DNA of 64,000 nucleotides, taken from positions 1 through 64,000 of the forward strand of contig JAJPIQ010000028.1 of the NCBI GenBank assembly GCA_021324685.1. Reading direction: 5' to 3'. Numbering within the stretch: the stretch's first letter is position 1; the number at the start of each line of letters is the position of its first letter. The translations under genes and the position numbers were made by a program. This DNA is from Bacteroidota bacterium. Lineage in GTDB: Bacteria > Bacteroidota > Ignavibacteria > Palsa-1295. This document shows, piece after piece, positions 5,166 through 44,341 of this stretch. The notes under the pieces were generated by a model that saw only the letters and a program-made list of their open reading frames with translations, made no database searches and had not been told where the DNA came from.

Positions 5166-6119
5166 TCAGCGACTCCTCAGCATCTCTTCTTCGAGGTCGA
5201 ACGTCGAAAGGATGCGTAACGCCCGGAACCGTTCGACGATCTCTTCCATCGAAAGATTTTCGATCCCTTCCGTCGAGAACTTCGAGCAGCAGTAACTGGC
5301 AAGGACGGTGCCGTAGATCACCGCGCGCTTCGCGTCTTCATAGGTCACCGCGCCGCGCCGCGCAAGATAACCGATAAATCCGCCCATGAACGTATCGCCG
5401 GCCCCGGTGGGATCGAAAATATCTTCCAGCGGGAATGCCGGCGCGGAAAAAATAAACTCGTCATAGAACAGGAGCGCGCCATGCTCCCCTTTTTTGATCA
5501 CGACGATGCGCGGCGAACCCTCGGCCAGCATGGCCTGCAGTTTTCGTCCGGCGACAATAAGGCTTGGGTGCTCGATGAGCAAACGCGCTTCGCTATCGTT
5601 GATGACGAGCGCGTTCGAAAGACGGAGCGTTCGTTCGAGGCTTTCCCGGTGGCCCGTGATCCAGAAGTTCATCGTGTCGAGCAGAACAAGCCTCGGCCGC
5701 CGGTCCAGTTGTTCGATCACTTGCCGCTGCAGGTCGGGCTGGATATTCCCAAGCACCAGAAAATCAGGCGACGTAAAATGTCCCGGAACGTGCGGTTTGA
5801 AATCGGCAAAGACATTAAGATTGGTCTCGATCGTGTCCCGCGTATTCATATCGTAATGATATCGTCCGTGCCAGGAAAATGTCTTTCCCTCGGGGACGAT
5901 CTCGATCCCGGAAGTATCGATCCCCCGCTGCCGGAAAAGGTCCCATGCGCGTTCGGGAAAATCGTCCCCGACAACGCCAACGACGCCCACTTTTTCTGGC
6001 GCAAAATAACTGGCCGCAAGGGAAATAAACGTGGCGCTGCCACCCAGGGCAAGCTCCCGCGTGGCGAACGGCGTTTCAATGATATCGAGTGCGAGCGAAC
6101 CGACGATGAGAAGTGACAA
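5166..6119 (-). CDS. PfkB-family carbohydrate/nucleoside kinase
   Basis: GGSATFISLAASYF N-terminal and DPTGAGDTFMGGFIGYLA C-terminal PfkB signatures. Confidence 0.9.
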   Translation of the reverse strand: MSLLIVGSLALDIIETPFATRELALGGSATFISLAASYFAPEKVGVVGVVGDDFPERAWDLFRQRGIDTSGIEIVPEGKTFSWHGRYHYDMNTRDTIETNLNVFADFKPHVPGHFTSPDFLVLGNIQPDLQRQVIEQLDRRPRLVLLDTMNFWITGHRESLERTLRLSNALVINDSEARLLIEHPSLIVAGRKLQAMLAEGSPRIVVIKKGEHGALLFYDEFIFSAPAFPLEDIFDPTGAGDTFMGGFIGYLARRGAVTYEDAKRAVIYGTVLASYCCSKFSTEGIENLSMEEIVERFRALRILSTFDLEEEMLRSR

Positions 6120-6268
6120 AGCCTATGAATGATAAGTACTGAAATACTAAAGTGTTCAATTTTGGTATAACCTATAAATTGGCAAAAATGTCATTATCTT
6201 TTAAGAACCCTACGTGTTCATTTGCTGGGAGTTAACTCCCCTTCTTGCCGTGTTCGGCATCAATTCCA

Positions 6269-8827
6269 ATGCTCGCTCGGTTCATCGTCGGCTGTATTTT
6301 GTTGCAGGCAATGTATGCCCGTGCCCAGACAATATTGCCGGAAGCAAAGCGACTTGCGCATCCACCAGCGGTGGCGCTCGTACTTTCGGGGGGCGGGATC
6401 AAGGGCTTTGCTCATATCGGTGTGCTCGAAGTCCTCGATTCGGCACATATCCCGATCGATCTTATTGCAGGAACCAGTATCGGCGCGGTCGTCGGAGGTC
6501 TGTATGCGGCCGGTTACACGCCCAAGCAACTCGAGGAATTTGCGACTTCGATCAATTGGGCCGATGTACTCGAACTCGAGGACCAGTCCCACCGCCCGGA
6601 ACGCGTTCTTTCGCAAAAGGACGATCGCGCGCTGCTCTCGCTCCGCTTCACCGGGTTTTTCAATCCGGTGATCCCACAGGCGATCTCGAGCGGCGAGCGG
6701 CTTACGATGCTGCTGAACGGAATGGTCTTAGGCGCGCCGGCGGGCGTGCCGCGCGATTTTTTGAGGGACATGAAAGTTCCTTTCGTGGCCGTGACCACCG
6801 ATATCGTTCGCGGCGAACGCCGCCTGCTTACGAACGGCGACCTCACCGAAGCGCTCCGGGCCAGCGCCACGCTTCCGCTCCGCTTTAGTCCCATGCCGGG
6901 CGATTCGACGATGCTCATGGATGGAGGGCTGCTCTCGAATATTCCGACCGATGTCGCAAAATCGCTCGGCGCCTCCCGCATTATCGTCTCGAATACGACG
7001 GCAAGTCTTCGTCCTCGCGAAGCACTCAACACGCCATGGGATGTGGCCGATCAGGTCGTCACGCTCATGATGCAGCAGGAAAACGCAAAGGAACTCGCGC
7101 TCTCCGATTACACGATCACACCGGATGTCTCGGGCCTGGACGAAGGCGATTACAGTACGATTCCTGAGATGATCGAGGCCGGACGTGAGGCCGCGAGGCG
7201 AATGCTGGGCGTGCTGCAGCATTCGATCGCCGGGATTTCCGATCCGCCCGAAATATCGATGAAGGACGATACCGTGCTCCGTTCATTGCGCGAGATCCGA
7301 GTCTATGGCACGACCGGCGAGTTCCCGGACACGGCATTCCTTCATGACCGTACGTTCCTCGGAAAGGCACTGTTACGATCTTCGAATTTGAAACTGATCG
7401 AGCACCGGCTGCTGGAAGATTATCGTTCCCATGGCTATACGCTGGTCCGGATCGATAGTGTTGTCCTGCATCCGGGTTTTGGCCGTGCCGATCTCTACAT
7501 GGACGAGGGCCGCATCGGCCGGATCGTCGTCCATGGCGATCCCGGGATCGATTCCGAAGTGGCATTGCACGAGCTTTCATTCGCGCGCGGCGATGTTTTT
7601 CGCGCTTCGGAGGGTGAACGCTCGCTACAGCACCTTACCGGTACCGGCCTTTTCGATTTTGCGGTCATTCAAATTTCCTATGATACATCATGGCCCGGAA
7701 CACAATATGTCTGGCGGCCCGATACGATCGCCTTCCCGCAGGAGCCGCCCTCGCTGGAGCCGGCGGTAATCCTGACGGTCCATGCTCGCAGCCCGAATGT
7801 CTTGCGTCTGGGTGCGCTGGCCGATAACGAATTCGGCGCAGAATTTTCCGCGGAATTTGCCAATGAGAATGTCGGCGGGAGCGGGATCGAATATTCCCTC
7901 ATCGGCAGCTTAGGCGCATTGGCCCGCTCGGCGTCCTTTACGCTCAATGCGCCCCGCCTCTTTCACAGCTTTGGCGTACTCGATGCAAGTATTTATTCCG
8001 GATATCGGGATATTAATGTGTACCAACTCGAGACGGTCGCGCCCGAACATAAAATAGTAAGCAGTGTAACGGACGTCGTACGCGAATCTCGCGACCTCGG
8101 GCTTCGGCTGCAGGCCGGCGGCCAGGTGGAACGCTTGGGAGCGATCACGGCCGAACTGCGCGTGGAACAACAACGATGGTTCAGCACGCGCGATAGCGCG
8201 AACGATCAGGGGACCGACGACCTTCGGGCCCTCCGAGGAGAACTCTTAGTCGATTCGCGCGACGATGGCGATTATCCTCATATTGGAACTCTTATTCGGG
8301 CCTATGCCGAAACCGGCCTTACGCTGTTCGGCCATGGAACGAATTATACGAAATTGTTCGGGGAAATGGAAGGGGCGATCCCGCTGTCGGCGTTGCATAC
8401 GCTCCTTCCGCGCATCCGGCTTGGATTCGGCGATGCCTTGCTGCCCCGGCTTGAAACATTCGCTTTGGGTGGAATGGAATCTTTTTACGGCCTGAACGAA
8501 TATGAGCTCCGTGGGAAACAAATGCTCGAGGGCAGCCTTTCCTATCAGATCGCTATTCCGCACTCGCTCTTTTTCCCGACCTTCGTTTCTATTCGATACG
8601 ATATTGGGGCCGTGTGGCCGGAACCCACGGAAATTAAGTTCGAGTCGCTCTTACACGGCCTTGGAGCACAAATCGGAGTAAAAACGCCCCTGGGTCTTGC
8701 CCGCTTCGGACTCGGAGAAAATTTTCGGTTCGTCGAAACGCCCGGAGTGAAACCTCTGGCACAACCTTCCCAGGTGATCGCCCTGAACTCCCCACACTTT
8801 TATTTTTCGATCGGGTCGAGATTATAA
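6269..8827 (+). CDS. Patatin-like phospholipase with C-terminal Omp85/BamA-like region
   Basis: LSGGGIKGFAHIGVLEVL, GTSIGAVVGGLYAAGY, DGGLLSNIP catalytic motifs; long C-terminal beta-rich region. The upstream TTG at 6245 is a less likely start. Confidence 0.88.
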   Translation: MLARFIVGCILLQAMYARAQTILPEAKRLAHPPAVALVLSGGGIKGFAHIGVLEVLDSAHIPIDLIAGTSIGAVVGGLYAAGYTPKQLEEFATSINWADVLELEDQSHRPERVLSQKDDRALLSLRFTGFFNPVIPQAISSGERLTMLLNGMVLGAPAGVPRDFLRDMKVPFVAVTTDIVRGERRLLTNGDLTEALRASATLPLRFSPMPGDSTMLMDGGLLSNIPTDVAKSLGASRIIVSNTTASLRPREALNTPWDVADQVVTLMMQQENAKELALSDYTITPDVSGLDEGDYSTIPEMIEAGREAARRMLGVLQHSIAGISDPPEISMKDDTVLRSLREIRVYGTTGEFPDTAFLHDRTFLGKALLRSSNLKLIEHRLLEDYRSHGYTLVRIDSVVLHPGFGRADLYMDEGRIGRIVVHGDPGIDSEVALHELSFARGDVFRASEGERSLQHLTGTGLFDFAVIQISYDTSWPGTQYVWRPDTIAFPQEPPSLEPAVILTVHARSPNVLRLGALADNEFGAEFSAEFANENVGGSGIEYSLIGSLGALARSASFTLNAPRLFHSFGVLDASIYSGYRDINVYQLETVAPEHKIVSSVTDVVRESRDLGLRLQAGGQVERLGAITAELRVEQQRWFSTRDSANDQGTDDLRALRGELLVDSRDDGDYPHIGTLIRAYAETGLTLFGHGTNYTKLFGEMEGAIPLSALHTLLPRIRLGFGDALLPRLETFALGGMESFYGLNEYELRGKQMLEGSLSYQIAIPHSLFFPTFVSIRYDIGAVWPEPTEIKFESLLHGLGAQIGVKTPLGLARFGLGENFRFVETPGVKPLAQPSQVIALNSPHFYFSIGSRL

Positions 8828-9543: not shown

Positions 9544-9590
9544 AACGAATCCTGAAGGTCCCAAAAAAAAGATTATAATCCAAAATAAGA

Positions 9591-9616
9591 AAGGCCCTCA
9601 ATTACTTGAGGGCCTT
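9591..9616. terminator. Bidirectional intrinsic terminator between convergent genes
   Basis: AAGGCCCTCAA-TTAC-TTGAGGGCCTT perfect stem with T-rich flank on the minus strand. Confidence 0.9.
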
Positions 9617-9637
9617 CTTTGCACGTTTAATCTTGCG

Positions 9638-10612
9638 TTAGTTTTGCTGCGTCAGCGAAACGAGCTGGCGCGTGAAATCCTGTTTGGTGAAGGTCACTCC
9701 ATCGGAGGTGAGGTACCACCAGTCGTATTGGTAGACGGGTCCGATATAGCATCCGAAGTACTTGTTTTCGTAATTGAAGTCCTTATCGGCAAGCTCCTTT
9801 GTGGTCATTCTAATATTAACCGTATGGGGGCTGACCATTGAGGGTAACACAACGAGCGTGTCCTTATTATCGACCGAACAGAACGTCTGCGAGTTCGGCT
9901 CGTTGATCACATCGTAATCCCACTTGCTCTTCCATCCGTTGTTGACAAAATCGCGAGTGAAAATGCAACGCTCTTCGACGATCGGCGCGCCCGGCATTCC
10001 GCCCTGGTGTTCCCAGATGAACGCGGAATCGTTGTGCTCGCTATACCAGATCGTATCGGTCTGCCAGACGTACGCTCCTGTATTCGTAAAATCATCGGCG
10101 CGGGTGCGAATAAGCCCTGCGATACCGGCCAGAATGGTATCGGTCGATACCGGGCGCGGGCGCGTCTGCATGGGAATTGCACCGCCGACGATGGCGCCGG
10201 GAGCGATGAATGCTCCGTGCGTCATATTACTCCTTGTCGCCGGAATGTAGTATAGATCGAACGGCGCTCCACCGGCATAGGCTGCCGAAACGCGGTAGGT
10301 AATCTGATAGCGGAAAAGCGAATCGCCATTCGGCCCGATCTGATCGAAGCCCATCGTCTGCACGATGTCGTTCGCACCGAGGAGCGACTGAGTGATCACT
10401 CCGTTCGAATCGTAAATATTTTCGGTATTCTGGAAGATGTAGGTCCAGCCGGCTTGCTTTTTATAGAAATAGTCGCTCATATTCGGCGAGCCAAGGCTCC
10501 CATGAGAACCACCCAGCGCGGCAGGGCCGTCCGGCGAAACAGAACATGCGGCAAGAATCGCCGACGCAAGTGTGGCGAACGCAAAACGCCACAGGAAATT
10601 ACGGGATTTCAT
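9638..10612 (-). CDS. Lipoprotein of unknown function, copy 1 of a tandem paralogue pair
   Basis: Lipobox LASAILAACS; closely similar along its length to the 11367..12344 product (e.g. MSDYFYKKQAGWTY, RPRPVSTDTILAGIAGLIRTRA, YGCYIGPVYQYDWWY-type blocks). Confidence 0.85.
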   Translation of the reverse strand: MKSRNFLWRFAFATLASAILAACSVSPDGPAALGGSHGSLGSPNMSDYFYKKQAGWTYIFQNTENIYDSNGVITQSLLGANDIVQTMGFDQIGPNGDSLFRYQITYRVSAAYAGGAPFDLYYIPATRSNMTHGAFIAPGAIVGGAIPMQTRPRPVSTDTILAGIAGLIRTRADDFTNTGAYVWQTDTIWYSEHNDSAFIWEHQGGMPGAPIVEERCIFTRDFVNNGWKSKWDYDVINEPNSQTFCSVDNKDTLVVLPSMVSPHTVNIRMTTKELADKDFNYENKYFGCYIGPVYQYDWWYLTSDGVTFTKQDFTRQLVSLTQQN

Positions 10613-10638
10613 AGTATCGTGCAGTGAAGTAGTTGAGA

Positions 10639-10905
10639 TTATTGAGTAATAGAGAAACCGCCCAAAGCGCGAGACGAATCGCATCGCCGGCAAAAGGGGC
10701 TGGCACTAACGCTTGAATTTTGATTGAGTCGAAACACCTTCGAAGCTCCCAGGGGCCAAGAACGCAGGCTCCCGGAGATCGGTAATGCATCACGTCCGGC
10801 AGAAGACCGGCGCGGGCGACCGACTGCAAGATCTGCCTTGCAGAAGGGGCACGTATGCTCACCATCGTTTCCGATGTACGAGCAGGATGGACACGATTTT
10901 AGCAT
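10639..10905 (-). CDS. Zinc-ribbon mini-ORF, copy 1; only the first ~34 codons are conserved between copies
   Basis: MLKSCPSCSYIGNDGEHTCPFCKADLAVGRPRRS, CxxC-x10-CxxC; the tail differs from copy 2. Confidence 0.5.
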   Translation of the reverse strand: MLKSCPSCSYIGNDGEHTCPFCKADLAVGRPRRSSAGRDALPISGSLRSWPLGASKVFRLNQNSSVSASPFCRRCDSSRALGGFSITQ

Positions 10906-11022
10906 CAGAGTAGAGAACGAATTGTTAGAGTAGAGAACAGATTACTTACTCGCACTACTCCCGGAAAACGCACATCCTGAGATTTAGTGCTCTCTTGATG
11001 GTACACAATATAAAACTTATTC

Positions 11023-11039
11023 TGTCATCCGCTCTGACA
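11023..11039. promoter_or_regulatory. Candidate operator dyad TGTCA-N7-TGACA upstream of copy 1
   Basis: TGTCATCCGCTCTGACA; equivalent dyad at a similar distance upstream of copy 2. Confidence 0.5.
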
Positions 11040-11122
11040 CAATGCATTTTTTTTAGAAAGAATTCCAATTGTAGAAATTAAGCAAAAAATGCAATGTTTT
11101 AAAATAAAAGAAGAAAATTTAA

Positions 11123-11137
11123 ATTTCAAAATGAAAT
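11123..11137. promoter_or_regulatory. Candidate dyad ATTTCA-N3-TGAAAT upstream of copy 1
   Basis: ATTTCAAAATGAAAT; its reverse complement ATTTCATTTTGAAAT is present at 12882..12896. Confidence 0.4.
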
Positions 11138-11302
11138 GGTGTTGGACAATGATGTAATAATTTGCAGATGGTGTCCAATAATGATACAGTATCTATTTTA
11201 TACAATCTATTTTCATAATGAAAGCAGAGGTTATATTAGTGTCTCAATTTGAGATATATGTATAAGAACGATACAGTTAAGAAAGGCCTAAAATGAAGAA
11301 AA

Positions 11303-11326
11303 GCCCCCTGGTATTACCAAGGGGCC
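11303..11326 (-). terminator. Intrinsic terminator downstream of lipoprotein copy 2
   Basis: Minus strand GGCCCCTTGGTA/ATACCAGGGGGC stem followed by TTTTCTTC. Confidence 0.85.
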
Positions 11327-11366
11327 CGTTCTTCTCTCTTTCTCTTAAGGAGCTCGCTTGTGTGCG

Positions 11367-12344
11367 TTAGTTGTGAGTTAGTGAGAGCAGCGAGCGTGTA
11401 AAATCCTGTTTCGTGAACGTACTGCCGTCGGTCGTTACATACCACCAATCGTATTGATAGACGGGTCCGATGTAGCAACCGTAGTACTTATCTTCGTAAT
11501 TGAAGTCGTAGTCGGCCAGCTCCGTGGTCGTGAAACCGATGTCCACGGTGTTCGAACTCGTTGTTGCGGGAACGGTCATAGACATGTTCGATGTGTTGAC
11601 CGTGCACGTCGTCTGCGGATTGGGCTCATTGATCACATCGTAGGACCAATGGCTTGCCCAGCCGTTCGTCGTAAAATCGCGAGTGAATATGCAGCGTTCC
11701 TGCGTAATGGGTCCGTTGATTCCGGCATGTTCCCAAATGAAGGCCGAGTCGTTATGCTCGCTATACCAGATGGTATCGGTCTGCCAGACATACGTGCCGT
11801 TATTCGTGAAATCGTTCGCTCGAGTACGGATCAGGCCCGCGATGCCAGCAAGGATCGTATCCGTAGAGACCGGACGCGGCCGCTTCTGCATCGTAATCAT
11901 GCCGCTAACGGTTGAGCTCGGATCAACGAAGGCGCCATGGGACTGGTTAGAGTGCGTCGCTGTGACGTAATTGACCGTCATCTGAGTGCCGTTGGCGTAC
12001 GCAGCCAGTACACGATATGTAATTTCATAACGGAAGAGCGAGTCGCCATTCGAAGCCATTTGATCGAAGCCCTTGCAGACAACTACGTCATTCGAGCCTG
12101 TCAGCGTTTGAGCCACTGAACCGTCACTATTATAAATTTTTTCGACGTTTTGGAACGTGTAGGTCCAGCCAGCCTGCTTTTTATAAAAGTAGTCGCTCAT
12201 GCTGGTCGAGCCGAGGCTTGAATTCTGAGTCCCGTGCGATCCGCCGGGTCCGGCGGGGCCATTTGGACTTACGGCGCACGCAGCCAGCAGCGTGCTCGCA
12301 ACGGATGCTAGTGCAAAACGCCATAATGTGGTAGGGGTTTTCAT
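11367..12344 (-). CDS. Lipoprotein of unknown function, copy 2 of the tandem paralogue pair
   Basis: Start MKTPTTLWRFALASVASTLLAACAVS (lipobox); extended similarity to 9638..10612. Confidence 0.85.
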   Translation of the reverse strand: MKTPTTLWRFALASVASTLLAACAVSPNGPAGPGGSHGTQNSSLGSTSMSDYFYKKQAGWTYTFQNVEKIYNSDGSVAQTLTGSNDVVVCKGFDQMASNGDSLFRYEITYRVLAAYANGTQMTVNYVTATHSNQSHGAFVDPSSTVSGMITMQKRPRPVSTDTILAGIAGLIRTRANDFTNNGTYVWQTDTIWYSEHNDSAFIWEHAGINGPITQERCIFTRDFTTNGWASHWSYDVINEPNPQTTCTVNTSNMSMTVPATTSSNTVDIGFTTTELADYDFNYEDKYYGCYIGPVYQYDWWYVTTDGSTFTKQDFTRSLLSLTHN

Positions 12345-12387
12345 AGGGATTGTGCTGTTTTGTGGAAGTAGTATCGAGCTGGGTCTT

Positions 12388-12675
12388 TTATCGATTAAGG
12401 GAAAACTGCCCAAAACGGGGGCATGGAAATTCAGCCGGCGTCGAGGGTTCATTAAAGGTTCTAAAACAAGTGGACAAACTGGGCCGAAGGCCTCCGGAGC
12501 TCCGCATAGCGCGCGCATGAGTTATACTTCTCATGCTTGTTGAATCCGAACGGCGTGGACGGCCGACGGCTAAATCTGCCTTGCAGAATGGGCAGACGTG
12601 CTCACCATCGTTACCGATGTAAGAGCAGGATGGACATGATTTAAGCATCGTATTCTTCAAAACGATTTTCTTCAT
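12388..12675 (-). CDS. Zinc-ribbon mini-ORF, copy 2 (conserved MLKSC start at 12648)
   Basis: MLKSCPSCSYIGNDGEHVCPFCKADLAVGRPRRS matches copy 1 over this span except one residue. Confidence 0.5.
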   Translation of the reverse strand: MKKIVLKNTMLKSCPSCSYIGNDGEHVCPFCKADLAVGRPRRSDSTSMRSITHARAMRSSGGLRPSLSTCFRTFNEPSTPAEFPCPRFGQFSLNR

Positions 12676-12758
12676 TTTTTCGCCCTTCAGCGTTCGAGAC
12701 CGCTTCCGGTCTCCGGCGCTGTAGTGCGCTCTTCATGCATACAAGATACTTTCCGGTC

Positions 12759-12775
12759 TGTCAAGAGCACTGACA
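12759..12775. promoter_or_regulatory. Candidate operator dyad TGTCA-N7-TGACA upstream of copy 2
   Basis: TGTCAAGAGCACTGACA, extends to CTGTCA...TGACAG. Confidence 0.5.
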
Positions 12776-12879
12776 GAAAAAACTTTTTTTCGAAAAAGAT
12801 GGAAATTGCGGAATTTGAAATGAGAAATCAAATTTTCGACTCAATCTTCATTTTTCTGGGCAATTTGTGACTTCCGACG

Positions 12880-12898
12880 GCATTTCATTTTGAAATGC
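12880..12898. promoter_or_regulatory. Candidate dyad GCATTTCA-TTT-TGAAATGC between the regulator stop and copy 2
   Basis: 8-bp perfect arms with 3-nt centre; shares the 15-bp core of the copy 1 dyad. Confidence 0.45.
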
Positions 12899-12933: not shown

Positions 12934-15900
12934 TTAAGATTCCGATTCTTTTTCAGTAAGAATCGTAAGATTTGTATAGAAAGAACGAAGCTCCTGGGAG
13001 GGGTCACTTCGAAATTCCGTCTTTAATTTTCGCGTGTATTCGTCGAAAATACGGACCATGTTCGTTTTTTGACGGCGCCGAGCATTAATTGTTAGCAGCC
13101 CGCGAAGCGCCTCCTCATCGAATTCATCGTACGATAGCAGCTTTAGACAAATTTCTTCTGCCCGTTCGAGCAAACCACGGTCGAGTTCAGTCTGGATCAG
13201 GCGTACGGCAGCCGTTCGCCGAATGGTGTCCATCCGCGTTCGTAATCCTTCGAGCCATGAAGCATAAATGCCGTCCATAAACGGCCCTCGCGCAGAGATC
13301 TTGAGGATTTGCTCGTAGTGAAAGGTGATCGAAAACAGCGCATTGCGTTTACGAGCCTGTCTGGACTCGTTATAATGTCGAAGGACCGCTTCTGCATCGG
13401 TCTCGACAATGGGCCCCAGCGCATATCCATCTTCATTCAGGACGATGGCGTCCGGTCCGCCTAAAAGTGCGCGCGCGCGCTTAATCGTGGTGTGAAGAGT
13501 ATTTGTGACGTTTGCGCTATCGGAATCGGGCCATAAAAGATCGATCAGCTTTTCGCGACTGACAGCGCCCCTGGCGCGGCCCATACGCGAATCGATGGCC
13601 TCGGCCCGTGAAGCCACTAAGAGTGAAAGCAACTGCCGGACTTTATTATCCCGATGTTTCGGTTCCGACGAAGGACCATTCCTTTTTTCTTCACCATTTT
13701 GGCCAATTTCATTGGCGGGTTCGATGGGTTCGGCAACAAAAGCACCGAATGTATATAGCCGTATGGCCGGTTTGACCGATTCTTCTTCGCGAATTTGTGC
13801 GCCTTTTGTAAGGAGAGCCGCCGACCGCTCGGAGTGATCTCGTTTTGGAAGAATTTCTTCGAATTCTTTGCGGATCTGATCTTCAAGGAGCGGAGCGTCC
13901 CATTTCCTCGCCAGATCGATCATTTCTTCGATATGGAATGTCAGTTTCTGGCGCAGGACCTGACGTTCAGCAACCGTTCGGGCTTTCCCAACCGTAAGCC
14001 ATAGAAGGCGCGACTCTGCAAGAGCGAAGCGAAGAAAATAGGGATTTCGCTCTTTATATTCCGATCTTACAATTTCTATTTCTTTTCGGGCTTCTTCAAA
14101 GCGTCCCATACCGGCATATGCCATGATGAGCGCTGTTCGAGCGGTTCGCTCCGCAAGGCGCTGTTCGCCGGCAAGCTGAACGGAGGTCGTTGCCACAGAA
14201 ACTGCCTCCTCAAATCTGCCCAGGCCGACGAGGGCAAGTGCTTTTTCATTTTGCGCCCATGCCGCGAACGAATCGTGCTGGTTACTTCGTGCAAGCTGTA
14301 TCGCTTCTTCCGCAAATTCGAGCGCCACATGATACCGACCCAGAAAATTCATTGCCGTAGCACGCCCTTCAATGAGTGAAATACGCTGCAACAAATTCGG
14401 CGACTGCGCCACGACACGAGCGTCTTCAACCAAAACCGAAAGCTGCTGCGAACATTCTTTGACTTTATCGGCATCCTGCTGGACACCGGCAATGATCATA
14501 CGCCAAAGATAGCTCATGATCTCGACGAAGCGAATACCGTAACGACGGCCATTGACAATCCCGAGATCGCAATGCTTCGTGGCCGAACGAACGTCGCCCG
14601 TGCTAAAGGCAGCCAGGGCAGCCTGAAACAGGAACATGGTTTCAACGAGCGTATTGCCATGCTCCTTCGCTTCCGCAATGATCTGACTCGTCAGTTGGCT
14701 CGCCTGCTCGTTCTGGTCCTGTTTTAACTTACTGTTTACAGCGAGCCGGTAATAGAGGGAATATTCGTCGAAACGAGATGCTGCCATGAGCCGAGCCACC
14801 GGCATCCCCTCTTCAATGAGCGCGTCCGCTTCCTTGTACCGGCCTGCATTGAGCAAAGCTTCACCCTTGGCCCGTGCGAGGACCGTCAGAAGATGCGCTC
14901 GTTCCATATTCGATTCCGGAACAACCTTCAAAGCACGGCGAGCTTCTTCCGCCCAGCGTTCGAATTCGGCATACGATGTCCGAACATGATGTAAAATCGC
15001 TCGGAGGGTCGCGACACGGCCTTGAGCAATGCCCTTGAATGCGGTCGAATAGATGCTGGATCCTTGAATGAACTTCTCGAGAACGGCCGCGTGCTCCAAA
15101 TCCCGTTCCGCATCGACCGGGGAACCATTCCTCAAAAATGCTTCGACGAGCAGACTATGTAGTTCGATAAGCGCTCCCATGGCCGCTTCGCTCAGGTCAG
15201 GACCGTAACGCCAGGTAATTTCATCGCGCATTGGCCGAATGCCGAGCAGCAACCGAAGGCACTGCTGAGGCTCCTGAGACCAGATCGACTGCACGACTTT
15301 CGATGACCATTGTAAAAAATGCTCGACCCGGCGCAGCATTTCCGGACTTTTCGTCAGCGCGAACGGTGGTGTCGTAACCGAAAGAAAGGCATTGCTATAC
15401 AGCGGCAGGTGCTCGGTGCCGGCGATCCAGACGATGGTCGTGATCAGATCGTGCTCGTGTTCTACCGCCGAACGTGCGCTCTCTAAGATCGTATTCCAAA
15501 AATGGGCGTGAGAAAATTCATAGCACCAATTGCTTTTCTCTTCCGAGGAGGTATGAGTGGAATCGGTCGAAAATGAGATGGATGGCGTCGCACGCCGAAT
15601 GATCGACTTAAAGGTTAGGAGGTCGATCGAGCGTTGAAAAATCTCGTCCGATAGATCCGAATCCCCAAGTCTGTAGCGCAATAATTGACGCAGGAGCCGG
15701 ACGTCGAACTGCTCGCCTAACAGCGCGCCATGCATCACAATGATCTGCTCGTCCTCGTTTAATCGCTCGATTTCGCGCTGGAACCGAGCCAGCACTTCTT
15801 GTTCGCCCGTATCGGGGGCTACTTCATCGAGCACTACCGATCGATCTTCCTGCCAATGTCCTCCTTCGTATGAAAGAACGCCCATCGTGACCAGTTGCCG

Positions 15901-16716
15901 CAGCATGGTCCGAAGGCTGAGCGGGCGACCGGTCGTCCGACTTTCGATCGTATCGATCAGTGCTTTACTCGGCTCAATTTCGAACAAAATTCCAAAAAGG
16001 CGCGTAATATCCCGCTCGCCAAAATCGTCGAGTGTGATGGCGTCGCTGGCGCGTTCTTCGCGGAGGGCAATTTCACGCATCAGATGCTCCGATGTCTGAT
16101 GCCGATTAATTTTCTGCGAAAGTGCAGTGACTCGCTCTGTGAGGACCACAAATTTCGATGCAGAACTGAGACCTAAAAAAAACTGGTCGAAAAGGGGCAG
16201 ATCGTCCATGTTATGGACGTCTTCGAGAATAAGGACGAGGGGAAATCGCTTCGCTATTTCGCTCAAAGAATCGAGCAAGATCTGGAGTGGAGGAGGTCCC
16301 ACTTCTGACCGCCCCGGTTCTGCATGGCCATTCCCATTCGCAGGAATGGAGAATCCGTTCGATTCTGGACGAAGGACACTTCGGCCGCGCAGATAATCCT
16401 TTAAATTGCTCTGCTGGGAAAGGCAGGCATCGAAGGCGTTCGTGATCGGCGTCAGTGCAGCTACGTTGCCTTCCAGATAACGGGCGTGGACAATGACAAC
16501 CGTTTCTCCATATTCTTTGGTCAGCCGTTCTTCGAACTCGCGGACCAGGCGCGTTTTTCCGCCGCCGGACTCCGCGCGGACGAGCACGTATTTCGATTCT
16601 CCTTCATCCAGGAATTCCCGAAATAGCGCGTCGAGACGCGAAAGCTCCGCCTCCCGCCCGACGAACGGCAGGATATTCTGATTCAAATAGCGGTGACAAA
16701 GGGGGTTCATAGCCAC
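12934..16716 (-). CDS. Large STAND-type regulator: N-terminal AAA ATPase, TPR-like middle, C-terminal SARP-type winged helix plus BTAD
   Basis: N-terminal FVGREAELSRLD, Walker A-like VRAESGGGKTRLV, Walker B-like LVLILEDVHNMDDL; C-terminal VSREKLIDLLWPDSDSANVTNTLHTTIKRARALLG and BTAD-like ERAEEICLKLLSYDEFDEEALRGLL. Confidence 0.85.
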   Translation of the reverse strand: MAMNPLCHRYLNQNILPFVGREAELSRLDALFREFLDEGESKYVLVRAESGGGKTRLVREFEERLTKEYGETVVIVHARYLEGNVAALTPITNAFDACLSQQSNLKDYLRGRSVLRPESNGFSIPANGNGHAEPGRSEVGPPPLQILLDSLSEIAKRFPLVLILEDVHNMDDLPLFDQFFLGLSSASKFVVLTERVTALSQKINRHQTSEHLMREIALREERASDAITLDDFGERDITRLFGILFEIEPSKALIDTIESRTTGRPLSLRTMLRQLVTMGVLSYEGGHWQEDRSVVLDEVAPDTGEQEVLARFQREIERLNEDEQIIVMHGALLGEQFDVRLLRQLLRYRLGDSDLSDEIFQRSIDLLTFKSIIRRATPSISFSTDSTHTSSEEKSNWCYEFSHAHFWNTILESARSAVEHEHDLITTIVWIAGTEHLPLYSNAFLSVTTPPFALTKSPEMLRRVEHFLQWSSKVVQSIWSQEPQQCLRLLLGIRPMRDEITWRYGPDLSEAAMGALIELHSLLVEAFLRNGSPVDAERDLEHAAVLEKFIQGSSIYSTAFKGIAQGRVATLRAILHHVRTSYAEFERWAEEARRALKVVPESNMERAHLLTVLARAKGEALLNAGRYKEADALIEEGMPVARLMAASRFDEYSLYYRLAVNSKLKQDQNEQASQLTSQIIAEAKEHGNTLVETMFLFQAALAAFSTGDVRSATKHCDLGIVNGRRYGIRFVEIMSYLWRMIIAGVQQDADKVKECSQQLSVLVEDARVVAQSPNLLQRISLIEGRATAMNFLGRYHVALEFAEEAIQLARSNQHDSFAAWAQNEKALALVGLGRFEEAVSVATTSVQLAGEQRLAERTARTALIMAYAGMGRFEEARKEIEIVRSEYKERNPYFLRFALAESRLLWLTVGKARTVAERQVLRQKLTFHIEEMIDLARKWDAPLLEDQIRKEFEEILPKRDHSERSAALLTKGAQIREEESVKPAIRLYTFGAFVAEPIEPANEIGQNGEEKRNGPSSEPKHRDNKVRQLLSLLVASRAEAIDSRMGRARGAVSREKLIDLLWPDSDSANVTNTLHTTIKRARALLGGPDAIVLNEDGYALGPIVETDAEAVLRHYNESRQARKRNALFSITFHYEQILKISARGPFMDGIYASWLEGLRTRMDTIRRTAAVRLIQTELDRGLLERAEEICLKLLSYDEFDEEALRGLLTINARRRQKTNMVRIFDEYTRKLKTEFRSDPSQELRSFYTNLTILTEKESES

Positions 16717-19196: not shown

Positions 19197-20819
19197 ATGA
19201 AAACAAAACTTGCAGTCTTCGCATCGATTCTCTTTCGCTGGTTCGCTGGAAGCGCGCTGATTATTACCTTCACTTTCTCGATCTTCGGGTGTTCGCACTC
19301 GAGTCAGCCGACCCAGCCAGCCTCTGGATTGCTCGATAGCTATTTCGACTCGACTACATCCAATCCCGTAGCCTCGAACATAACTTATACCCGAAAGGAT
19401 GGTGCAACTTCAACAGAGATTGCAATACCAGGTCAAATTACTATCCTGTCGAATTTTGACGCGAATTCCGATTCTGTTGCCAAAGTTATTATTTTAGAGG
19501 GTGGAGACGTTCTCGCACAGGCTCCCGCAGTAGGCTTTTACCTCGCCGGAATCGACTCGACCCGGACATCGGCATTCCTTTCGTCAATGTATAGCAGCAA
19601 CTTAGTATTGGATGCCTTTCCGAATGAGGTCGGAATCGGTAGAAGTAATTATGGAAATCACAATAACATAATCCTCGCAGTTACGAACGACGCAAACGCG
19701 CTCGTTCAAACAATCGATGTTTCTGCGAATATAGGTTGCTCTAAGTATCCTACAGACTCTAATGTCTGGCATGAAGATGGTGTAGGGAGCATCGCAGGGC
19801 AAAATGGAGTGGACGTCAGAATCAATGATGTTACCATACCGATAACTGCACATAGCATTCATGCTAGTGCAACAGGGTGGTCAATGATACATGAACTATT
19901 GTCTTTGATTGCAGCACGAAAAAATGGACCACCACTCATTATCAACTTTTCCATGGGCTCGGATCCAGATAACTTAGCAAACGATTATCATTGGTATGAC
20001 CACTTTGTTTCCGCCGTCCTCAGCGGTGTAGTAAAACGAGATCCCCAAGCTCTGAATAATGTTGTAATCTTCGTGTCCGGTTCTGATATGAACTTAGATG
20101 AAACTAGTTCTTTTAATAACCTCCACGACATCTACCCTAACTCTCCAATTTGGAAGAGCCTATACTTCGTGGGTTCTAGTAACAATGGGTCCGGGTGCAA
20201 TTTGGGGTTTGCTGCTGTTGGTACTCCGAATACCCTTAGCGCACCCGGATGCAACCTCTCTATCCCGAATGCACCATGTCCAGGCAACGGGAACTCCTTC
20301 TCGACCCCCGCTATTGCGAATCTCGTCGGCCAAACTTTCTTAGCAAGTGGAAGCACGCTCAATCTTCAAGTCATCGCCCAAACTTTGTGGCAATATCAAA
20401 CGAACAACAACGGACAACTCCCGAGTCCAACGTTGCTCCTCGCCCTGTGTGGCGGCGGCAATACCGGTGGTGGTGGCAACGGTAGCAACCAATTCGATGG
20501 GACATACTCTGGCTCCCAGACTGGAAACTGGACTTGCCCGCTCGGTGGTCCGTTCAGTGATACTTTTGGTATGGTCGTAAATGGCAACTCGATAATATCG
20601 CTAGCCGAGGGTGGTGAACCAACTACAGTCACTTCTTCACCTATCGACACGAAAGGAAACTTTAGTCTCACGGTTTCATACCAGGGAAGCTACACTACTA
20701 CTATCACATTAAACGGAAAATTCGCTCTTACTGGTAATTCAGCAACGGCGAGCGGTCCTATTACTGGAAATGGGGGAGGGTGTACCCTTGCTGGAACCTG
20801 GACGTGCGCTCGGCAATGA
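19197..20819 (+). CDS. Lipoprotein with divergent subtilase (S8)-like region and C-terminal beta-rich domain
   Basis: Lipobox-like TFSIFGCS; S8-like blocks PLIINFSMGSD, NTLSAPGCN, GNGNSFSTPAIANLVGQ; C-terminal FDGTYSGSQ...GTWTCARQ. Confidence 0.6.
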   Translation: MKTKLAVFASILFRWFAGSALIITFTFSIFGCSHSSQPTQPASGLLDSYFDSTTSNPVASNITYTRKDGATSTEIAIPGQITILSNFDANSDSVAKVIILEGGDVLAQAPAVGFYLAGIDSTRTSAFLSSMYSSNLVLDAFPNEVGIGRSNYGNHNNIILAVTNDANALVQTIDVSANIGCSKYPTDSNVWHEDGVGSIAGQNGVDVRINDVTIPITAHSIHASATGWSMIHELLSLIAARKNGPPLIINFSMGSDPDNLANDYHWYDHFVSAVLSGVVKRDPQALNNVVIFVSGSDMNLDETSSFNNLHDIYPNSPIWKSLYFVGSSNNGSGCNLGFAAVGTPNTLSAPGCNLSIPNAPCPGNGNSFSTPAIANLVGQTFLASGSTLNLQVIAQTLWQYQTNNNGQLPSPTLLLALCGGGNTGGGGNGSNQFDGTYSGSQTGNWTCPLGGPFSDTFGMVVNGNSIISLAEGGEPTTVTSSPIDTKGNFSLTVSYQGSYTTTITLNGKFALTGNSATASGPITGNGGGCTLAGTWTCARQ

Positions 20820-20939: not shown

Positions 20940-21380
20940 ATGATACAAACACTCGTATACTTCGCTTCGATTTTTTTTCGCCGATTCACAGCAAATGTTG
21001 CGATCATTTTCTTGGCATTTGCTATCTTCGGCTGTTCACACTCCTCATCACCGCCGGTCACTAGCAGCACCGCTACCTATGCTGGAAGTTATCAAGGCAT
21101 GGTATCCGACCAGGGTTCAATGTTTTCCGATAGCTCTGGCTATAGGATTTGGGTAATCGACACTGTGGTATACAGTTCGTACGGAGCCATAGGAAGTGTA
21201 TCCTCGAATGGAGAAGCAACTTTCACAGATCCCGGTACAGGTCATTTGTTTGGTGGAGGTCTGAAGTTTGTCGGAAACATCGGGAGTTCTTTAGCCAGCG
21301 GAACATTTTCTGAAACTGCCTTAGACATCTTCAATCGGCCCGAAAGTGAATCGGGCACATGGAGTTTAACAAGACAATAA
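20940..21380 (+). CDS. Small lipoprotein related to the leader and C-terminal domain of the preceding gene
   Basis: Leader FASIFFRRFTANVAIIFLAFAIFGCSHSS resembles FASILFRWFAGSALIITFTFSIFGCSHSS; both end GTW...RQ. Confidence 0.65.
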   Translation: MIQTLVYFASIFFRRFTANVAIIFLAFAIFGCSHSSSPPVTSSTATYAGSYQGMVSDQGSMFSDSSGYRIWVIDTVVYSSYGAIGSVSSNGEATFTDPGTGHLFGGGLKFVGNIGSSLASGTFSETALDIFNRPESESGTWSLTRQ

Positions 21381-42700: not shown

Positions 42701-44341
42701 TCACTCGCTGGGGACCCGTAGGGCGTAGAAGTGCGAATCGCCCTTGCTATCGACCACCGTAAGCCCGACGGCTTTACCTTCATTGGCCTTGATGATCTGT
42801 TCGAACGAACCGGCATCTTTCACTTTCTGGTGTGCCGCTTCGGTGATGACGGCATCGCGCCCCAGGCCACGATCGTACGCTTCCGAAGCCGGCTCGACGT
42901 TCGTGATGACGACGCCGTTCGAAACATGATAGTGGTCTTTGTCTTCGGCCGTCGCCGTGCGCACACTGATACCGATGTTATCCAGGGTCGCTGTCTGCTT
43001 CCCGGACTCGTCCTGTGCATTTTCCTGATCGCTCGAATTATCGGAGGAAGTATTTTCCGCAAGATCGGTGCGTGCTTTCAGCGTGACCGTCTTATCGAAC
43101 TCTTTGCCATCGCGCCAGATGTGGAGCGTGACATGGTCGCCCGCATGGTGCATTCCAATGATGCTCTGGAGCTCGTTGGACTCGTTCGTCTCCTGCCCAT
43201 TGACGGAAAGGATGACGTCATTTTCTTTGAGTCCCGCTTCCTCGCCGGCGCCGCCTTTTTGCACCTGGTCGACACGCACGCCGCGCGGACGGTCGAGTCC
43301 CAGCGCCTGCGCGACGGTCTGGTCGACGTTTGCGATCTGCACCCCAATGTAGCCGCGGTTGACCTTACCGTTCTTGATCAGGTCCATCGCCACTTCTTTG
43401 GCCATGTTGATCGGCACGGCAAACCCATAGCCCGCAAAGTATCCGGTCCCGGACGCGATCGCCGAGTTGATACCGATAACTTCGCCTTTGATGTCGAAGA
43501 GCCCGCCGCCGGAGTTACCGGGGTTGATCGCCGCATCGGTCTGGATAAAGTTCGCAATGCCGTAATGGCCCGCCTCTTTCTCATCGAAGATATTGAGCGG
43601 ACGGTGCAGCGAGGAAACAATTCCCTGCGTGACCGTCGATTCGAGGCCGAGCGGATTGCCGACCGCGAGTACGACCTGGCCGACCTGGAGATCGTCCGAA
43701 TTGCCGAGTGCCGCGACCGGAAGGTTCGTTGCGTCGATCTTGATCACGGCGATGTCCGTCGTCGGGTCGGTTCCCACCACATGCGCATCGAAGACGCGCT
43801 TATCGGTCATCTGGACCGTAACGCCGCCTTTTTTCGCGGCATCTTTCACGACGTGATTGTTCGTGAGGATATATCCATCGCTCGTGATGATAACGCCGGA
43901 CCCGATCCCCTCTTCAGGGCCCTGCTGGGGCTGCGGTAACTGGAAATGGAACGGCATATCGCCGCCGCCATTACCATTATCGTCATCGCCGCCACCGCCG
44001 CCGAAGAACCGCTCGAACGGGTTATCCTGATTTTTCGAAGCTTTCGGAGCTTCAGTCTTGACATTGATCTGTACGATCGTTGGCTGGACCGCTTTTGCGA
44101 TCGCGACGAACGAGTTGTTCAGTCCGGCCAGCGATTGGTCGTTCGGAAGGCTCGGAAGCGCACCACCCAGCGCAGGCTCGCTCGCGCCGAAGGCGACGTT
44201 CATCCCCTTCCAGCTACCGAAACCCGTCACTAACGTCGCCCCAAATACCAGCCCCAGAACCACTAAAAATACGGCTGCTAAACGCGGATGATCGCTCATG
44301 CGAAGATGACCGTTCACCCGAAATGGACGTTTTGTTAACAT
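42701..44341 (-). CDS. HtrA/Deg-family periplasmic serine protease with PDZ domains (alternative start 44299)
   Basis: GSGVIITSDGYILTNNHVVKDA; TDIAVIKIDA; QTDAAINPGNSGGGLFDIKGEVIGINSAI. Confidence 0.96.
   Translation of the reverse strand: MLTKRPFRVNGHLRMSDHPRLAAVFLVVLGLVFGATLVTGFGSWKGMNVAFGASEPALGGALPSLPNDQSLAGLNNSFVAIAKAVQPTIVQINVKTEAPKASKNQDNPFERFFGGGGGDDDNGNGGGDMPFHFQLPQPQQGPEEGIGSGVIITSDGYILTNNHVVKDAAKKGGVTVQMTDKRVFDAHVVGTDPTTDIAVIKIDATNLPVAALGNSDDLQVGQVVLAVGNPLGLESTVTQGIVSSLHRPLNIFDEKEAGHYGIANFIQTDAAINPGNSGGGLFDIKGEVIGINSAIASGTGYFAGYGFAVPINMAKEVAMDLIKNGKVNRGYIGVQIANVDQTVAQALGLDRPRGVRVDQVQKGGAGEEAGLKENDVILSVNGQETNESNELQSIIGMHHAGDHVTLHIWRDGKEFDKTVTLKARTDLAENTSSDNSSDQENAQDESGKQTATLDNIGISVRTATAEDKDHYHVSNGVVITNVEPASEAYDRGLGRDAVITEAAHQKVKDAGSFEQIIKANEGKAVGLTVVDSKGDSHFYALRVPSE

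Follow-up and report, generated by a model that had tools for sequence, protein, structure and literature searches.

A tandemly repeated Cys4 mini-ORF and lipoprotein cassette with a candidate SARP-type regulator in an uncultured soil genus

The stretch of DNA analysed here (the window; 64,000 nucleotides of contig JAJPIQ010000028.1 from a bacterium assigned to the Bacteroidota) contains two complete tandem transcription units, in each of which a short four-cysteine (Cys4) ORF precedes a lipoprotein gene. The reading that we prefer, with a probability of about 0.55, is that a dedicated SARP-like activator drives the expression of two products together, a zinc-ribbon small protein that acts in trans and an outer-membrane lipoprotein specific to the genus. 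This reading draws on features evident at the level of sequence: the anatomy of the units, their restriction to one genus, the selection acting on the Cys4 core, the open frame of the tail and the co-occurrence of the regulator, the promoter motif and the cassette. The new element is the cassette promoter motif, which was confined to genomes with a gene for the AAA-TPR-BTAD regulator, and the analysis names one specific regulator-site pair that can be tested. If the reading is true, it would place a SARP-type circuit with a compact mapped target far from Streptomyces. The cassette would also exemplify a very short protein whose conservation exceeds that of the gene behind it; gene callers usually miss proteins of this class.

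Under the proposed mechanism each copy would be a self-contained, activator-dependent bicistronic unit. The regulator would receive a signal through its AAA/TPR part, bind the direct repeat TGTCAG-N6-TGWCAG at the usual position of the -35 box and bring RNA polymerase to the -10 box, in the manner of AfsR at afsS. First on the mRNA would come a small cytosolic protein, in which a weakly constrained tail follows the Cys4 zinc-ribbon core, and the lipoprotein, predicted to be of the outer-membrane type, would be translated second and coupled to the small protein. A more elaborate version, which we put forward tentatively and hold to be well short of even odds, is a one-regulator, one-cassette SARP-like circuit outside the actinobacteria, in which the ribbon protein feeds back on the regulator or on lipoprotein export and a derived lineage tethers the ribbon to the lipoprotein signal peptide.

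Anatomy of the tandem units

The regulator gene, copy 2 and copy 1 follow one another in the same reading direction on the minus strand. The order within each unit is a palindrome, an activator-type direct repeat with a -10 box, the Cys4 mini-ORF, the lipoprotein gene and a terminator. The features, in window coordinates, are as follows:

12934..16716, minus: large SARP-type regulator, 1260 aa, with AAA_16, MalT-like TPR and a predicted C-terminal winged helix plus BTAD (C-terminal domain at 12937-13764)
12882..12896, minus: palindrome of copy 2, ATTTCAAAATGAAAT (genome-wide pattern count)
12743..12775, minus: promoter repeat and -10 box of copy 2, TGTCAGTGCTCTTGACAG-N9-TATCTT (motif scan, 9 genomes)
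12388..12648, minus: Cys4 mini-ORF of copy 2, 86 aa, conserved core at 12547-12648
11367..12344, minus: lipoprotein of copy 2, 325 aa, lipobox LLAAC (ATG 12344, stop 11367)
11301..11327, minus: intrinsic terminator 3' of copy 2, 12-pair stem
11123..11137, minus: palindrome of copy 1, ATTTCATTTTGAAAT (genome-wide pattern count)
11007..11039, minus: promoter repeat and -10 box of copy 1, TGTCAGAGCGGATGACAG-N9-TATATT (motif scan)
10639..10905, minus: Cys4 mini-ORF of copy 1, 88 aa, conserved core at 10804-10905
9638..10612, minus: lipoprotein of copy 1, 324 aa, lipobox LAAC (true ATG 10612, stop 9638)
9590..9617, minus: intrinsic terminator 3' of copy 1, 12-pair stem

The initial annotation had placed two codirectional mini-ORF plus lipoprotein modules here, with correct coordinates, and the minus strand applies throughout. 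The module that it described is real; the adjacent SARP-type regulator, the likely controlling element, lay outside its description. The relatedness that it saw in the upstream sequences proved more specific than described, a palindrome and a promoter repeat being found in each copy.

The promoter repeat and the SARP-type regulator

A 15-bp palindrome, ATTTCANNNTGAAAT, lies upstream of each copy (11123-11137 and 12882-12896). The pattern ATTKCANNNTGMAAT has three matches genome-wide, two of them at the two modules, and in most copies of the genus the palindrome stands 94–143 bp upstream of the promoter repeat. The cassette promoter reads TGTCAG-N6-TGWCAG-N9-TATMTT, and in the 3.47-Mb window genome the repeat with its -10 box occurs solely at the two modules (11007-11039 and 12743-12775). 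A scan of nine genomes with TGTCA-N7-TGWCAG-N9-TATMTT, with one mismatch allowed and the reversed motif as a control, gave 13 matches in the six cassette genomes and none in G004, G007 and G008, while the reversed control gave none throughout. Eleven of the 13 sites precede cassette copies (including the Cys-less G002x), one belongs to a relic in G003 and one is an orphan in G006; the promoter of G005b exists in a degenerate form only.

Sites bound by SARPs consist of direct repeats spaced at 11 or 22 bp, the 3' repeat lying 8 bp from the -10 box (PMC10936776; PMC10972967 on SARP sites), and the AfsR box is centred at -29.5 (PMC10936776). At the cassette the TGNCAG direct repeat has a period of 12, its 3' repeat ends 9 bp from TATMTT and its centre falls at about -30.5 if TATMTT sits at -12 to -7. 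This layout is similar to that of the AfsR/afsS promoter, although the period is longer. An ordinary sigma-70 promoter was set aside, the promoter scan finding none at the conserved TATMTT. About half of the copies also permit an inverted-repeat reading of the site; a perfect inverted-repeat operator was rejected, as 6 of the 13 sites have the C that it requires before TGTCA and 12 of 13 have the G that a direct repeat needs after it. In G001c, G002b and G002x (L039, L040) the -10 box lies about 5–7 nt before the mini-ORF ATG, which suggests leaderless mRNAs in these three and a leader of roughly 100 nt in others.

An orthologue of the regulator was found in 6/6 cassette genomes and 0/3 of the tested genomes without the cassette, a co-occurrence that covers one genus and may represent a single evolutionary event. 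The gene is directly upstream of the cassette in G000, G001, G002 and G005 and unlinked to it in G003 and G006. The BTAD domain (PF03704) scores 27.9 bits against a cut-off of 22.1, with 24.4–37.2 bits in the orthologues; AAA_16 is recognised at E 1.5e-13 and TPR_MalT at E 1.7e-9, under its cut-off, while Trans_reg_C before BTAD scores 20.9 bits, under the cut-off of 26.2. The C-terminal model has a helix-helix-helix-hairpin arrangement (pLDDT ~85–89 in its best part) and suggests a winged helix and a helical domain. AfsR and EmbR account for its five highest-ranking PDB matches (E 0.005–0.05), although the resemblance in fold is weak (E 0.005, TM ~0.25, model pLDDT 62). The regulator thus combines the nucleotide-binding and TPR parts expected of a large SARP, in a domain order reversed from that of AfsR.

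With the AfsR-afsS system of Streptomyces the cassette shares a large regulator with a SARP domain and nucleotide-binding and TPR parts, a direct repeat just 5' of the -10 box and a first target gene, putative in the cassette, that is a small ORF. It differs in that the SARP part is C-terminal in the window regulator, the repeat period is 12 rather than the usual 11, the small ORF encodes a Cys4 zinc ribbon and precedes a lipoprotein gene, and the host is not an actinobacterium and has no antibiotic genes recognised nearby.

The pho box bound by PhoB consists of CTGTCA-type half-sites, arranged as direct repeats that replace the -35 region. The adjacent regulator may have nothing to do with the cassette, the promoter repeat being read by another factor such as a PhoB-like response regulator of the OmpR family. 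The CTGTCA of the cassette site resembles the PhoB half-site, and direct repeats are bound by OmpR-family and SARP winged helices alike. The pho box, however, has a period of 11 and other targets, no response regulator is linked to the cassette, and a Pho-type site ought to turn up at phosphate genes, whereas the motif is confined to the cassette and is missing from the tested genomes that lack the SARP regulator. We regard reading by another factor as rather unlikely. The pairing of the regulator with the promoter is well supported by co-occurrence, within a genus that affords little phylogenetic independence, and binding of the regulator to the site is putative; the adjacent regulator probably activates the cassettes. 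Autoregulation was not favoured, as by inspection the motif was not seen upstream of the regulator gene.

The small protein and the lipoprotein

The 102-nt cores of the two window copies are 84% identical in DNA and one residue apart (T18/V18), exactly as had been proposed for the first ~34 codons; 13 of their codon differences are synonymous and 1 is non-synonymous. Residues C5, C8, C19 and C22, which form two CxxC knuckles, do not vary among the 8 mini-ORFs aligned and are also present in the two fused copies, and all four cysteines are retained in the ten intact cores. The mean pN and pS over the 45 pairs of these cores are 0.104 and 0.780, against 0.311 and 0.761 for the matching lipoproteins, and the variable core columns are distributed 13/10/32 over the codon positions. 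Judged by these values, the core is under strong protein-level selection, about three times tighter than the lipoprotein, at equal and saturated synonymous divergence, and the view that the peptide was retained by selection on its amino acids is borne out. Gene conversion as the source of core similarity was rejected because the synonymous sites of the core have diverged as much as those of the lipoprotein.

The divergence of the tail, which the initial annotation had set against the conserved core, is real, but the tail is not mere junk. In the closest alignable pair (G001c/G002b) third codon positions are favoured, with 36 of 57 mismatches (P 0.0015), and G000b/G005a show a third-position bias at P 0.027; the bias is absent in 2 of the 4 tail pairs tested. 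The tail is variable and appears weakly constrained. The tail of one mini-ORF in G006 (L041) carries repeated GGATGAT/ATCATCC units and a strong hairpin.

The core resembles the double zinc ribbon DZR_2 (PF18912) at 20.3 and 17.3 bits, under the curated cut-off of 27; they share the CPxC...CPFC knuckles, with residues 4-32 aligning, and differ in that the cassette core is one ribbon only, free-standing, of 34 residues plus the variable tail. We infer that the core is a zinc ribbon that would bind zinc. Metal or redox sensing by the Cys4 peptide, as initially suggested, is possible, and nothing that we found backs it. Anti-TRAP of Bacillus (PMC11255114), a small zinc protein controlling a regulator, may offer an analogy in manner of working; other genes and another taxon are involved, and the likeness carries no claim of homology.

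The two window lipoproteins are 69% identical to each other, and the family has no match in Pfam, NCBIfam, PADLOC or PDB sequences, in agreement with its first description as being of no recognisable family. By inspection they have a signal peptide and a lipobox: a hydrophobic stretch leads to Cys23, which all 8 members in the alignment share (LAAC/LSAC/LASC/TGC/SSC), and an outer-membrane-type location is predicted. The structure model is poor (pLDDT 46.7), and Foldseek matches to LolA-like proteins (TM ~0.14) were set aside. Nothing relevant came from a literature search on pairs of a small zinc-ribbon protein and a lipoprotein.

In 8/8 unfused copies the mini-ORF frame is open until 29–48 nt short of the start codon of the lipoprotein or, in G001c, runs into that codon (ATGA), while the other two frames mostly contain several stops; the joint probability of this in dinucleotide shuffles, ~1e-6, is nominal, as the 48-nt limit was chosen post hoc and related copies were counted as independent. 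Because the frame stays open to the lipoprotein start, the two are predicted to be translationally coupled. In G001a and G002a the mini-ORF, its tail shortened, is fused in frame to the lipoprotein. The G001b lipoprotein retains only a Cys-less peptide remnant and yet is under purifying selection (pN 0.13, pS 0.80); G001 keeps two intact cores elsewhere, and no genome with the cassette is without an intact copy. On this evidence the core is apparently not strictly needed in cis, and the idea of a cis-acting leader required by each lipoprotein finds no support, the G001b lipoprotein being selected without its own core. Since cassette genomes all keep an intact copy while single lipoproteins can lose theirs, the small protein most likely acts in trans, its most plausible targets being the regulator (feedback) or lipoprotein biogenesis.

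Several other roles of the mini-ORF have to be weighed against action in trans. As a cis-acting leader, it would set lipoprotein output, by coupling or attenuation, as ribosomes translate it as far as the lipoprotein start, with the Cys4 peptide stalling or releasing ribosomes in response to zinc or redox state. The frame that is open in all copies though the tail varies, and terminator-like hairpins near the 3' ends of both window mini-ORFs, agree with such a leader, but the survival of the G001b lipoprotein after loss of the Cys4 peptide makes trans action the likelier of the two. Attenuator leaders are, moreover, normally conserved at the 3' end, whereas the mini-ORF is conserved at the 5' end and variable in its tail, the fused copies still conserve the core (pN 0.038) with the tail gone, and the Rfam search for a leader RNA gave no match, a riboswitch or known leader RNA being rejected as the sole hit was a meaningless sub-threshold miRNA. 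We consider the leader doubtful. It is less probable still that the core belongs to the lipoprotein gene as a cytosolic zinc-ribbon domain and became detached from it in most lineages, with the fused form original and no separate small protein: the in-frame fusions in G001a, G002a and, Cys-less, G001b fit this, as does the existence of generic zinc-ribbon plus membrane-helix proteins (e.g., L055), but the fused copies form one clade lacking the tail that all others have, which looks like a derived deletion, and 8 of the 10 intact copies have an ATGA overlap or separate stops. A RiPP-type precursor, with a conserved leader, the variable tail as core peptide and the lipoprotein as immunity or export partner, would account for the conserved N-terminus and variable tail, and peptide or antibiotic clusters are often under SARP control; this is very improbable, as the shared neighbourhood shows no recognisable maturase, protease or transporter, the tails have no recurrent modifiable motifs and the variable stretch stops, in every case, where the next gene begins.

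Distribution, copies and decay

The core and the lipoprotein are both present in 6/7 members of one Kapabacteria-related genus, and both are missing in the seventh (G004). The members are uncultured soil bacteria, represented by metagenome bins that were submitted under the names Candidatus Kapaibacterium, Ignavibacteriae or Bacteroidetes. The G004 site syntenic to the cassette, beside SDR and patatin-Omp85 genes, is occupied by other genes. Core and lipoprotein queries against 100 relatives, and a lipoprotein profile search of 391 genomes of the class, found neither in any further genome; core matches outside the genus are generic zinc ribbons with E above 0.01. Phage and plasmid origins and a defence system were rejected, as viral contigs hold no relatives of the mini-ORF and neither plasmid DNA nor PADLOC gave a match.

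The known copies comprise 11 lipoproteins and 12 mini-ORFs. The lipoprotein tree joins the two from the window as sisters (support 99/97) and G001c with G002b, and it puts G001a, G001b and G002a in another clade; because the tree groups them in this manner, whole units were duplicated more than once, and the initial view of a conserved module duplicated as a whole is supported by copies across the genus. Decay is seen in the Cys-less in-frame remnant of G001b, in the Cys-less mini-ORF without a lipoprotein in G002 (G002x) and in a relic second cassette of G003 (L094, G003:C7:37550-37582) that consists of palindrome-like sequence, promoter, ATG and then terminator. Two observations thought capable of undermining the association were thus partly made: 2 of the 12 mini-ORFs have no cysteines and one lipoprotein has no intact core.

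The orphan promoter of G006 (L102 ~5647-6730, G006:C323:9646) precedes a 328-aa ORF with neither mini-ORF nor lipoprotein; the end of this ORF resembles a type IX secretion sorting tail. An HtrA/DegP-like protease is encoded in the window at 42701-44341 (minus), and in G005 and G006 a related gene is the neighbour of the SARP regulator. The neighbouring window genes at 19197-20819 and ~20940-21380 (plus) have related N-termini with lipoprotein-type signals and are a possible paralogous pair.
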